Positions 31,370 to 55,900 of a stretch of 64,000 bases of DNA are shown here, piece after piece. A model generated the notes under the pieces. It was not told the origin of the DNA. It did not search any database and worked only from the letters and a program-made list of their open reading frames with translations. The stretch's first letter is position 1; each line of letters begins with the position of its first letter. The DNA comes from Gemmatimonadota bacterium (GTDB lineage: Bacteria; Gemmatimonadota; Gemmatimonadetes; Gemmatimonadales; Gemmatimonadaceae), in contig JAQBQB010000002.1 in assembly GCA_028287235.1 (NCBI GenBank), forward strand, positions 124,001 to 188,000, given 5' to 3'. The position numbers were made by a program, and so were the translations under genes.

Positions 31370-31388
31370 TCGCGTACCGGTGATCGCG

Positions 31389-31435
31389 ACGACGTCAGCC
31401 CTATTCATACACATATATGAATGGGCTGACGTCGT
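31389..31435 (+). terminator. Strong hairpin after the lipoprotein gene, probable rho-independent terminator
   Basis: ACGACGTCAGCCC at 31389-31401 pairs perfectly with 31423-31435. Inside that stem ATTCATA (31403-31409) pairs with TATGAAT (31416-31422), leaving one bulged T and a 6-nt loop (CACATA). The outer arm runs straight into TTT. It ends the hsp20-lipoprotein transcript before the padR gene. The AT-rich inner stem is unusual for this GC-rich region. Confidence 0.7.
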
Positions 31436-31497
31436 TTCCGGCCCGGATTAAGAATCGGTTACGTCCGGCCGACGTCTCTTGCCGGCGTCGGCCAGTC

Positions 31498-31534
31498 GGA
31501 CCTACATATACGTCGTCACTACATATGTCGGTCC
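31498..31534 (+). promoter_or_regulatory. AT-rich direct and inverted repeats immediately upstream of padR, candidate operator
   Basis: CTACATAT occurs at 31502-31509 and again at 31519-31526 (17 bp apart), and the flanks GGACC (31498-31502) and GGTCC (31530-31534) are inverted. ACATATGT at 31521-31528 is itself palindromic. The block ends 1 bp before the padR ATG. PadR proteins commonly bind ATGT/ACAT-containing sites and autoregulate, so an operator is a natural reading but is unproven. Confidence 0.45.
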
Positions 31535-31535
31535 C

Positions 31536-42510: not shown

Positions 42511-42853
42511 GAGCCGATCGTTTGTGTCCGGCACCGACGTCGCCTGGGACGAAACCGGCGACGGCGTGCGCCGACAGGTCCTGGGACATGGCACGGAGCT
42601 CATGGTGGTCCGCGTGGAGTTCAAAGCGGGGGCGGTCGGTGCGCTGCATCAGCATCCACACCGGCAGGCGACGTACGTGATGGCGGGACGATTCGAGGTG
42701 ACGGTGGGAGCAGAGACGTCCGAGCTCGTGGCCGGCGACTGCTTCTATGCGGCCGCGGACGTCGTGCACGGAGTTCGGGCGTTGGAAGACGGCGCGTTGA
42801 TCGACGTGTTCACTCCGGTTCGTGAGGATTTTCTCATGCCAGGCTTGTGGTGA
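42503..42853 (+). CDS. kdgF: KdgF-type cupin, unsaturated uronate ring-opening enzyme
   Basis: This encodes 116 residues from ATG 42503, overlapping the regulator gene by 8 nt. It is a single cupin with '[18 protein letters not shown]', '[20 protein letters not shown]' and '[32 protein letters not shown]', which matches KdgF closely. The metal-binding set is H49, H51, Q55 and H89. KdgF converts the cyclic 4,5-unsaturated monouronate released by GH88 and similar enzymes to the linear ketone. The next enzyme, KduI, is encoded in the same operon, so the two steps are physically linked. The protein is cytoplasmic by lack of a signal peptide, which implies that the unsaturated monomer is imported. 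Confidence 0.92.
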
Positions 42854-42875
42854 CCGCTCTCCGGCCGGGCGTCGC

Positions 42876-43925
42876 GTGAAGATGACGTTCCGGTGGTACG
42901 GGCCGCAGGATGAGATCCCGCTGCGCTACATCCGCCAGATTCCCGGCGTGCGCGGCGTCGTGAGCGCGCTCTACGACGTTGCCGTCGGCGACGTGTGGCC
43001 CAAGCCACGGCTTGCCGCGCTGGCCGACACGATCGACGCCGCGGGTCTCGTGCTGTCCGTCGTCGAAAGCATCCCGGTGCACGAAGACATCAAGCTGGGC
43101 CGTCCCACTCGCGACCGGCTGATCGACCGGTACGCCGAAAGCGTGCGGCACATGGGGGAGCTCGGGATTCCCGTGCTCTGCTACAACTTCATGCCGATCT
43201 TCGACTGGACGCGCACCGACCTGGCAATGCCGCAGCCCGACGGGTCGACGGCGCTCTCGTACGACGACGCGGCGCTGTCGCGCATCGATCTCTCGCATGG
43301 CACGGGCAATCTGCCCGGCTGGGCCACGGCCTACGACGCCGCGTCGCTGCAAGCGCTTCGCGCGGCATATCAGGACGTCACTGAAGAACGGCTTTGGGAA
43401 CATCTCGCCTACTTCCTGGAACGCGTTGTTCCCGTGGCCGAGAGCGCGGGCGTGAAGATGGCCATTCATCCCGACGATCCGCCGTGGCCGATCTTTGGAT
43501 TGCCGAGAATCATCACGAACGGCGCGGCATTCGATCGGCTCACGCGCTTCGTGGATTCGCCGGCCAACGGCGTCACCTTCTGTTCCGGATCCCTCGGCGC
43601 GAATCCGTCGAACGACCTTCCGGCAATCGTGCGCCAGCTCGGAGGCCGTGGCCGCATTCACTTCGCGCACTGCCGCAACGTGAAGGTCACCGGACCGCGG
43701 AGCTTCACCGAGGCCCCGCATCCGTCGGCGCTCGGCGACGTGGACATGCACGCTGTATTGTCGGCGCTGCACGAGACCGGATTTCGCGGACCGATGCGTC
43801 CCGATCACGGACGCATGATCTGGGGCGAGACAGGCAGGCCTGGTTACGGGCTCTACGATCGTGCGCTCGGCGCGACCTATCTCCAGGGCCTGTGGGAAGG
43901 AATTTCGCGGGAGAGAGGATCATGA
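42876..43925 (+). CDS. uxuA: Mannonate dehydratase (UxuA)
   Basis: This encodes 349 residues from GTG 42876 ([13 protein letters not shown]), which matches the usual UxuA start; an upstream in-frame frame extends to 42822 but adds no homologous sequence. UxuA dehydrates D-mannonate to 2-keto-3-deoxygluconate, using Fe2+ or Mn2+. Family hallmarks: '[21 protein letters not shown]', '[11 protein letters not shown]', '[16 protein letters not shown]', '[16 protein letters not shown]', 'FCSGSLGA' and '[14 protein letters not shown]', containing the His, Cys and Asp metal ligands, then '[11 protein letters not shown]'. It shows that saturated hexuronates (through fructuronate) are also used. UxuB and UxaC are not encoded in the window. 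The stop overlaps the next start (ATGA). Confidence 0.95.
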
Positions 43926-46291
43926 TGCTTACAGGCAATTGGCGTGGCTTTCGCCGCGCGCTTGGTGTGTCTTGGCTGGTTGGCCTCGGCATGCTCGCCG
44001 GCACTGACCGAGCCAACGCGCAGACGACGAGAGCGGACGTACCGCGCACGATTCTCCTGCGCGGCGACCGTCTCGCTGAATCGAAGCGCCTCTTCGCGAG
44101 CGGCGAACCGTCGCTCGCGCCGACGTTCGACGCGTTGCTCGCGACCGCGCGTGCCGCACTCTCGGCGCCTCCGCTGTCGGTGATGCAGAAGGGCCGCGTG
44201 CCGTCGAGCGGCGACAAGCACGACTACATGAGCATGGCTCCGTACTTCTGGCCCAATCCCGCCACGCCGAACGGGCTGCCGTTCGTGAATCGCGACGGCG
44301 AGATGAACCCTGAGAGCCGCAAGGACCATGACGGGCTGCGGCTGCAGCAGACGGTCAGTCGTGTACATGCGCTCGCGGTGGCCTGGTATCTCACCGGCGA
44401 CGCGAAGTATGCCGACGTCGCCGCAAAGGACCTGCGCATCTTCTTTCTCGATACCGCCACGCGGATGAATCCCAACCTGCGCTTTGCGCAGGCGGTGCTC
44501 GGTGTGACCGACGGCCGCAGCTACGGCATCATCGATACGCGCGACATGCCGGAGCTCGTCGACGCCGTGCGGTTGCTCGAGGGTGCGCCGGGTTGGACGC
44601 GGCGCGACGCCGACGGCATGACCGCATGGTGCCGCGGGTATCTCACCTGGCTGCTCGAGAGCAAGAATGGAATCGCCGAACGAGATGCCACGAACAACCA
44701 CGGCACGTTCTACGACGAGCAGGTGGCCGCCCTCGCGCTGTTCGTCGGCGACTCCGCGCTCGCCAAGAAGACGATCGGCGAGAGTGGCGCGAATCGCATC
44801 GCGAGCCAGATCGACGCCGACGGAAAGCAGAAGCGCGAGCTCGAGCGCACGCGTCCCCTGCACTACACTCTCTTCAATCTCGACGCGTTCACCATGCTCG
44901 CCGAGATGGGGCGCCACGTGGGCGTGGATCTGTGGCACTACACGTCACCGGGCGGCGGCAGCATCGAGAAAGCAATTCTGTTCGTCGCGCCGTACGCGGA
45001 TTCCACGGTCAAATTCCCGACTCCAGACATCGCCGAGCAGGGTCAGGGCGAGTTTCTGCCGCCGCTGCGAAGAGCGGCGTCGCAACTCGCCAATCCCGTG
45101 TTCGCCCGCGCGCTCGAGCACGTGCCCGCGCAGCTGCGGGCCAAGGATCCGGACGCGGTCAACTTTCCTCTCGAAGCCGTTTCCAAACGGGCCCTCGGCA
45201 GAGCGGCGGAACAGCTCCGCCGAACGGCGACGGCGCTCGACCCGGCCAACGGGTATCCGCGCTCCACGAACGCGAGCGGAGAGATGGAGCAACGGACGCA
45301 GACGGAATGGACGAGTGGATTCTTCGCCGGCATGCTGTGGTCCATGTACCAGAACACCGGCGCGCCCGAGTGGCGCACGCTCGCGGAGCGGTGGACCGTG
45401 GGCCTCGAGTCCAACAAGACCTTGACCACGTCGCACGACTTGGGATTCATGATCTTCGACAGCTTCGGCCGCGGCTTTCTGCTCACGGGCGATCCGCACT
45501 ATCGCGACGTCGTGATGCAGGCGAGCCGCTCGCTGGCCACGCGCTTCAACCCGCGTGTGGGCGCGATCAAGTCGTGGGATACGCAGGGTGCCACGGACGC
45601 GCGCAGGGAGTGGAAGTACCCCGTGATCGTCGACAACCTGATGAATCTCGAGATGTTGTTCTGGGCGGGATCGCACGGCGGCGACAGCGCGTGGATTCGG
45701 CTGGCCGAGCGGCATGCGCTCACGTCGGCGCGCGCGCACGTGCGGAGCGATGGAAGCACGGCGCACGTCGCGCTGTTCGATCCGGCCACGGGCGCGCTCG
45801 AACGCACGGTGACATGGCAGGGCTACGGCGACAGCTCGGCGTGGTCGCGCGGACAGGCGTGGGCGATTCACGGATTCTCCGCGTCGTACGGTCAGACGCG
45901 CCGGCCGGAGCTGCTCGCCGCCGCGCAGCGTACGGCGGACTGGTTCATCGCGCATCTGCCGCCAGACGGCGTACCGTACTGGGACTTTCGCGATCCGGCC
46001 ATTCCTCACACCGAGCGCGACGCATCGGCGGCAGCGATTGCTGCGTCGGGACTGTACGACCTCGCGCGCTACGTAGACCCTGCCACGAGCGACCGCTATC
46101 GCGCGGCGGCCGATGACATACTCCTGTCGCTCGCGTCCAACTACATGGCGCCGCTTTCGGCACGCGGCGCGATCCTCGCGCATTCCACGGGAGCCCGCCC
46201 GGCGCACTCGGAGGTCGACGTCGGCATGGTCTACGCCGACTACTTCTTCATAGAAGCGCTTCTCCGGCAGAAGGGCCTGTTCCTCGGCTGA
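43922..46291 (+). CDS. Exported fusion: alginate-lyase-like (PL5-type) domain plus GH88 unsaturated uronyl hydrolase
   Basis: This encodes 789 residues from ATG 43922, with a signal peptide cleaved at ANA|QTTR. Residues about 40-390 match the alginate lyase family PF05426: '[15 protein letters not shown]', '[31 protein letters not shown]', and '[20 protein letters not shown]' near 257-276, which includes the active-site Asn-His pair. Residues about 430-789 are a GH88 barrel: '[19 protein letters not shown]' near 461, '[16 protein letters not shown]' (Asp near 504), '[13 protein letters not shown]' (Asp near 569), and '[14 protein letters not shown]' near 638. The first domain would cut by beta-elimination; the second would remove the unsaturated uronate so generated. 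Having both on one chain is uncommon and biochemically sensible. The polymer may be alginate, glucuronan or another uronan. Confidence 0.88.
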
Positions 46292-46334
46292 CGGCCGCCC
46301 CAAAAATCGTCTGAAACCCTGAGCGTCCTCCCTT

Positions 46335-46356
46335 CGTATGGGGATCACATAGGACG
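46335..46356. promoter_or_regulatory. Distal copy of a 22-bp operator-like site upstream of the second padR
   Basis: This begins CGTATGGG and ends CACATAGGACG. It is 19/22 identical to the site at 46420-46441, with mismatches at positions 9, 10 and 13. The two copies are 85 bp apart start to start, about eight helical turns, which fits co-operative binding by a dimeric PadR. Confidence 0.6.
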
Positions 46357-46419
46357 CCAAGGGCGGGCGCTGCACGATCCGACTCCGCTATTGCGCGTCT
46401 CCGCTCCGAACGGTAGCAT

Positions 46420-46441
46420 CGTATGGGTTTCCCATAGGACG
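46420..46441. promoter_or_regulatory. Proximal copy of the 22-bp operator-like site, touching the padR start region
   Basis: TATGGG-TTT-CCCATA forms a perfect dyad within it, followed by GGACG. The site ends 4 nt before the padR ATG at 46446, so a bound protein would block transcription or translation initiation. It matches the distal copy at 46335-46356. Confidence 0.6.
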
Positions 46442-46445
46442 GACC

Positions 46446-46790
46446 ATGGCGGACAAGATGGACGTCAAGCAGGGTACGCTCGCCCTGATGATTCTCAAGA
46501 CCCTCGACGTGCTCGGGCCGCTGCACGGCTACGGCATCGCGCGCCGCATCGAGGAGACGAGCAAGAACCGGATCACGCTCAATTACGGCACCCTCTACCC
46601 TGCCCTGCTCAAGCTCGAGCAGGAAGGGTTCATCAAAGCCGAGTGGGGCCAGTCCGAGAACAATCGCCGCGCGAAATTCTACGCCCTCAGCGCCGCGGGT
46701 CGAAAACAGTTGGCACGCGAGGCGCGCGAATGGCATCAGACTGCTGATCTGATCGCCGCCTTTCTCGCGCCGCAAAAGGAGGCACTATGA
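46446..46790 (+). CDS. PadR-family transcriptional regulator (second of three)
   Basis: This encodes 114 residues. It has the standard PadR winged helix: 'KQGTLALMILKTLDVLGPLHGYGIARRIEE', 'LNYGTLYPALLKLEQEGFIKAEW' and 'RRAKFYALSAAGRKQLAREA'. It reads as an autoregulated repressor whose duplicated 22-bp operator lies directly upstream. An AGGAGG inside its 3' end serves the permease gene, and ATGA at 46787-46790 overlaps stop and start. Compared with the regulators at 31536 and 55906 it shares the fold but not the operator sequence, so the three modules should respond separately. Confidence 0.92.
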   Translation: MADKMDVKQGTLALMILKTLDVLGPLHGYGIARRIEETSKNRITLNYGTLYPALLKLEQEGFIKAEWGQSENNRRAKFYALSAAGRKQLAREAREWHQTADLIAAFLAPQKEAL

Positions 46791-55866: not shown

Positions 55867-55900
55867 TCCTCCTCGTATCTACCCTTAGATACGAGGAGGA
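55867..55900. promoter_or_regulatory. 14-bp perfect inverted repeat covering the ribosome-binding site of the third padR
   Basis: TCCTCCTCGTATCT at 55867-55880 is exactly inverted at 55887-55900 with a 6-nt spacer. The right arm contains the GAGGAGG Shine-Dalgarno of the gene starting at 55906. Protein binding or RNA hairpin formation would both shut off translation, so it could be an autoregulatory operator, a translational switch or both. Confidence 0.65.

Follow-up and report, generated by a model that had tools for sequence, protein, structure and literature searches.

Few PadR operators have been characterized closely. Among the closest described systems, LmrR is a small PadR-like dimer of Lactococcus lactis that represses its own gene and the transporter lmrCD through imperfect inverted repeats in the promoter; the sites follow the form ATGT-N8-ACAT (10 bp apart in lmrCD), with two dimers to a site (PMC5428041). 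The Bacillus cereus proteins bcPadR1 and bcPadR2 (PadR-s2) are wHTH PadRs with α-3 as the recognition helix and with putative sites bearing a degenerate ATGT/ACAT motif; from the poorly conserved helices the authors of that report inferred that related DNA-binding proteins differ in their cognate operators (PMC3506622). Passages of a report on Listeria PadR repressors contained no site of this kind (PMC6624303). A literature search, mostly outside subscription literature, returned no paper on padR-ADOP operators among the matches listed, and the candidate paired, private operators of this family are described here from sequence.

The window analyzed was a stretch of 64,000 nucleotides from a Gemmatimonadota genome, and the operon of interest comprises the second of its three padR genes and the permease gene that follows. 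The relevant features are as follows.

46334..46356, + strand: O3, candidate distal operator copy; core 46337-46351, TATGGGGATCACATA, with one arm mismatch
46389..46403, + strand: apparent O2 remnant, TATTGCGCGTCTCCG, at a distance of exactly 33 bp upstream of O1; the left half is retained and the right half gone
46391..46396, + strand: putative -35 box TTGCGC; conserved position, weak consensus match
46414..46419, + strand: putative -10 box TAGCAT, separated from the -35 box upstream by 17 bp
46419..46441, + strand: O1, candidate proximal operator; core TATGGGTTTCCCATA at 46422-46436, found in 24 of 27 protein-found orthologs at up to two mismatches
46436..46439, + strand: Shine-Dalgarno-like AGGA at a distance of 6 bp from the ATG, in contact with the right arm of O1 and conserved after the core
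46446..46790, + strand: padR gene, 114 amino acids, TIGR03433 / PF03551
46787..49486, + strand: ADOP-family duplicated permease gene (TIGR03434; MacB_PCD plus FtsX), its start overlapping the padR stop

Both operon proteins scored above the curated cutoffs of their families, padR_acidobact (TIGR03433; 131.2 bits, cutoff 101.8) and the ADOP permease (TIGR03434; 792.6 bits, cutoff 622.3). A TIGR03433 PadR with an adjacent ADOP gene is a known association. The adjacent gene expected of such a PadR is present in the window, as is a palindromic site in the gene's own promoter, the arrangement of a PadR autorepressor. The large expansion of the padR_acidobact family extends to this genome, which encodes 41 PadR domains. 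Like LmrR, the system combines a small PadR-like repressor candidate, its own gene, a transporter, and an inverted-repeat promoter site, and like bcPadR1 and bcPadR2, the protein is a wHTH PadR with recognition helix α-3. The site itself differs in letters and spacing from the ATGT-N8-ACAT and ATGT/ACAT forms given in those reports: it reads TATGGG-N3-CCCATA, that is, ATG-N7-CAT. On direct reading of the letters, the canonical PadR consensus ATGT-N8-ACAT is absent; the + strand of 46292-46445 contains no ATGT. Upstream of the operon, the gene at 43934-46288 joins an alginate lyase domain (PF05426) to a GH88-like domain (PF07470) and lies near a mannonate dehydratase gene, UxuA (42822-43925); together they are probably a uronate-use cluster.

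A first-pass annotation of the window had described two sites, 19/22 identical and 85 bp apart, and direct comparison of the letters bore this out: 46335-46356 and 46420-46441 share 19 of 22 bases at a start-to-start spacing of 85 bp. This equals 8.1 helical turns, in agreement with the claimed spacing near eight. With one further base on the left, TCGTATGGGGATCACATAGGACG (46334-46356) and TCGTATGGGTTTCCCATAGGACG (46419-46441) are identical at 20 of 23 positions, and in the window the repeat is confined to this 23-bp site; the surrounding sequence is not part of it. The perfect TATGGG-TTT-CCCATA dyad claimed for the proximal site was located at 46422-46436, and over the 21-bp span 46419-46439 pairing was found at 8 of 9 arm positions. 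The site was also said to abut the start codon; it ends 4 bp before the ATG, and its core 9 bp before it. At up to three mismatches, the 23-mer was absent from all 100 dinucleotide-shuffled versions of the window, and in the 5.73-Mb genome it occurred at these two places only. Likewise, the core TATGGGNNNCCCATA at up to one mismatch gave these same two sites in the whole genome and its reversed control none. A dispersed repeat, which the first-pass annotation had named as an outcome that would refute it, is ruled out within the limits searched. At two to three mismatches the short core was no rarer than chance, and TATKGGNNNCCMATA at up to two mismatches matched 58 places in its own genome versus 66 for the reversed control, with no further targets standing out.

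Conservation of O1 was evaluated among orthologs of the window PadR. A protein search of 59 genomes identified an ortholog (70 to 88% identity) in 13 besides its own genome, the next best matches among those listed being about 43 to 56% identical, and a phylum-wide search at E ≤ 1e-45 identified one in 23 of 298 genomes, own included. Combined, the searches yielded 27 distinct orthologs, again with the window's own. O1, scored as TATGGG-N3-CCCATA 15 to 45 bp before the start codon and by default with up to two mismatches, was present in 11, 18, 24, and 26 of the 27 at 0, 1, 2, and 3 mismatches, respectively, leaving three orthologs without it at two mismatches. In the 24 promoters anchored on O1, in which conservation of the arms is inflated by the anchoring, a TC before O1, an AGGA after it, and a TTGCG about 30 bp upstream were conserved, none of which had been used for anchoring; the stretches between conserved bases carried about 0.2 bits per position. 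In one ortholog, TATTGGAATCCAATA, both dyad arms were altered in step. A larger set of 48 ortholog loci, found partly through the O1 motif itself but not through O2 or O3, held O1 in 43 and a second upstream site in 23, compared with averages of 0.035 and 0.3 in single-base shuffles. Script-chosen starts were wrong or narrow for some rows: L091 and L124 were scored without O1 though the motif precedes the gene, and the start assigned in L106 is a non-start codon. ADOP-like sequence followed on the same strand at 47 of 48 loci. Related PadRs were also encountered in contigs labeled Pedosphaera (L169) and Betaproteobacteria (L124), which suggests transfer or misbinning.

The exact motif TATGGGNNNCCCATAGGA was then scanned over named GTDB contigs, giving 93 stretches, of which 80 were taken as loci. 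Of the exact matches, 84 were examined (L071 and L075 being duplicates of L108 and L133). The start of a related PadR (64 to 88% identity) was at most 40 bp away in 22 and 70 to 71 bp away in three; the remainder, many in unrelated phyla, had no related PadR close by on that strand. The matches in L118 and L141 look like chance. In L108, the site precedes an apparent broken padR start, and the best match by E value in that genome is 50% identical. Two sites stand directly before padR-less ADOP-like genes, one in Gemmatimonas b76 and one in Solibacteraceae SbA4.

L133 1154-1171, + strand: candidate operator before a padR-less ADOP-like permease gene
L120 3639-3656, - strand: candidate operator before a padR-less ADOP-like permease gene

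The SbA4 gene is preceded by both O2 and O1 and scored 896.5 bits, above the cutoff, and the PadRs of that genome are 68, 63, and 61% identical to the window PadR, 68% being the best. The gene in Gemmatimonas b76, truncated where its contig ends, scored 276 bits, below the cutoff; an 88% identical PadR is encoded elsewhere in that genome. Judged from the sequence, both sites are likely trans targets.

The PadR at 46446 very probably has O1 as its operator, because this site is conserved with the orthologous PadR and also occurs before padR-less ADOP genes, and because other padRs bear other dyads at the same place. The assignment to the adjacent PadR made in the first-pass annotation thus appears strongly supported, and we consider it highly likely that both sites are operators of this PadR and that it acts as a repressor of its own padR-ADOP operon. 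That some other regulator reads the sites is very improbable: the site accompanies the PadR ortholog in both Gemmatimonadota and Acidobacteriota, and the remaining padRs of the same genome bear different dyads.

Regarding the promoter, a sigma-70 consensus scan detected neither a -35 nor a -10 box, and the putative pair is a weak sigma-70 match. The claim that the sites flank the presumed promoter holds for the -35 box but not for the likely -10 box, which touches the proximal site, so that transcription would start inside O1. This position also bears on whether the dyad could be an RNA hairpin masking the ribosome-binding site, a reading that AGGA adjoining the right arm and the long arms of some paralogs (W3, at least 13 bp) would suit. 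With the -10 box at 46414, the inferred start leaves no complete left arm in the RNA, and copies upstream of the transcription start are useless to an RNA element; we regard the hairpin as the least probable of the alternatives. In the favored model of repression at the DNA, a PadR dimer on O1 would cover the transcription start beside the ribosome-binding site and block RNA polymerase, and a second dimer on the upstream copy would reinforce repression. Release of PadR, and with it expression of the permease, would follow a signal for which envelope stress or a small molecule is plausible. Binding, repression, cooperativity, the inducer, and the direction from O2 to O3 considered below are what we infer from these comparisons.

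The first-pass annotation had treated the operator as simply duplicated. Two copies do exist, but the commonest spacing in the family is 31 to 35 bp, and the nearer copy, which it had not seen, is a -35 half-site: the left half of the O2 remnant is TATTGC at 46389. An intact O2, typically TATTGCATTCCCATA, was found 28 to 34 bp before O1 at up to two mismatches in 14 of the 48 ortholog loci, mostly in Acidobacteriota. In eight other orthologs the second site lay at 39, 46, 46, 54, 64, 65, 67, and 77 bp, compared with 85 bp in the window. No ortholog had three sites at up to two mismatches within the 250 bp searched upstream, and O3 therefore looks like a replacement for O2. In the ortholog tree, in which 32 of 49 inner branches are open, the nine O3 rows all fall within one 29-row group, mainly Gemmatimonadota, and O2 rows occur both inside and outside it. 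We infer that O2 is ancestral and O3 derived, and O3 gives the appearance of an auxiliary operator that has moved. In many family members, O2 covers the -35 box some three helical turns upstream of O1, so that dimers on O2 and O1 would be neighbors on the same DNA face; in this lineage, O2 would have decayed to its -35 half, with O3, 85 bp upstream, as the remaining or regained auxiliary site.

The spacing of O3 would also be compatible with the looping raised in the first-pass annotation. In such a model, an 85-bp, eight-turn loop held by dimers at O1 and O3 traps or excludes RNA polymerase. The 8.1 turns of the window, the spacings of 64, 65, and 54 bp near whole turns, and the apparent substitution of O3 for O2 speak for it. 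However, spacings of 39, 46, 46, 67, and 77 bp are out of phase, the nine distal spacings, which come from related rows, have a weak helical phase (Rayleigh p of 0.06 to 0.10), the commonest spacing of 31 to 35 bp requires no loop, and looping by a dimer requires an additional dimer-dimer contact, here hypothetical. We therefore consider a loop unlikely, though not to the degree of the other alternatives. A second site was present in 2, 7, 10, and 13 of the 27 protein-found orthologs at 0, 1, 2, and 3 mismatches, respectively, and the mere 10 of 27 at two mismatches would fit O3 as a chance or leftover copy without function. Against this stand the excess of upstream second sites over shuffles in the 48-locus set and, in the window, a repeat limited to the 23-bp site with unrepeated flanks; a functionless O3 appears quite improbable, and an auxiliary operator remains the preferred interpretation.

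Comparison was extended to 153 padR promoters, 41 from the same genome and 112 from relatives (116 further loci, 112 with a usable start). A dyad before the start codon was detected in 16 of the 41 own padRs at p ≤ 0.05 and in 12 at 0.01; six control stretches gave 1 to 3 of 41 (Fisher p = 4e-12, dinucleotide-keeping null). The other 25 had none at p ≤ 0.05, and O1 of the window reached 0.066 on symmetry alone. Among relatives, 47 of 112 padRs had a dyad versus 7, 3, and 11 of 112 in controls (single-base shuffle null). The dyad sequences differ from paralog to paralog. By the criterion of at least 12 of 16 bases alike at a spacing of 30 to 35 bp, 41 of 153 promoters carried paired copies, eight of them among the 41 own padRs. 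The spacing was 31 bp in 4 promoters, 32 bp in 9, 33 bp in 16, 34 bp in 10, and 35 bp in 2; many of the paired loci are related, and these counts are not independent. Two gene stretches used as controls gave 6/153 and 2/153, and a stretch further upstream gave 9/152. The upstream copy (O2) contained a -35-like TTGA or TTGC in 35 of the 41 pairs versus 4 of 41 for the downstream copy. In 24 of 41, purines resembling a ribosome-binding site occupied the right half of the downstream copy. The downstream copy begins 60 bp or more upstream of the start codon in five pairs, and some of the pairs have therefore probably arisen by chance. Before the padR at 46446, the copy over the -35 box is not intact; it is reduced to its left half, exactly 33 bp before O1. 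Many sister padRs nevertheless seem to share the layout with different, private site sequences.

Similarity between PadRs tracked similarity between their operators (r = 0.32). A pairwise residue scan covered 144 of the 153 PadRs (eight divergent own ones were omitted by name and one by a length filter) and ranked N72, K8, P109, and R75 highest, with partial r of at most 0.13. In a block regression, helix 4 had the least weight, helices 1 and 2 weighed about the same, and for pairs below 60% identity helix 3 fell short of significance (p = 0.056). A per-residue code was rejected. Pairs with an identical helix-3 core were compared with other pairs binned by identity over the rest of the protein, an operator match being at least 12 of 15 bases. 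Matches were found in 52% of 29 versus 15% of 195 pairs at identities of 0.6 to 0.7 and in 8.7% of 115 versus 3.5% of 2,349 at 0.5 to 0.6; there was no excess at 0.4 to 0.5 (2.7% of 111 versus 2.5% of 6,183) or at 0.3 to 0.4 (0 of 14 versus 1.7% of 1,024). The grouping of operators by helix 3 was done by eye, without a null, for 86 of 144 rows. After relatedness is removed, the link between recognition helix and operator is weak.

These findings suggest that one PadR operator can be pinned down by comparison alone, with a like layout but other sequences in many paralogs. The padR paralogs thus form a natural library on how paralogous repressors avoid cross-talk, and an operator search could predict the permease under each PadR, including permeases elsewhere in the genome. 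A broader proposition, for and against which we see equal grounds, is that the dozens of padR-ADOP modules per genome are mutually insulated autorepressor circuits, with private, often paired operators that incorporate the -35 box, adjoin the ribosome-binding site, and keep a constant spacing of three turns. Natural PadR-operator pairs probably number many hundreds in Gemmatimonadota and Acidobacteriota together; on this view they could be used to decipher the PadR recognition code, and that code could supply an orthogonal repressor kit.

Three relatives (G003, G004, and G024) showed an extreme expansion, with 78, 66, and 64 matches to the window PadR per genome. At about 31386-31535, ahead of the window's first padR, lie a long inverted repeat, GACGTCAGCCC...GGGCTGACGTC, and ACATAT/ACATATGT elements that by eye seem closer to the canonical PadR consensus. 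Before the third padR of the window (55906) lies a dyad at 55869-55898, CTCCTCGTATCTA-ccct-TAGATACGAGGAG, with arms of at least 13 bp, which scored highest among the 41 own padRs.
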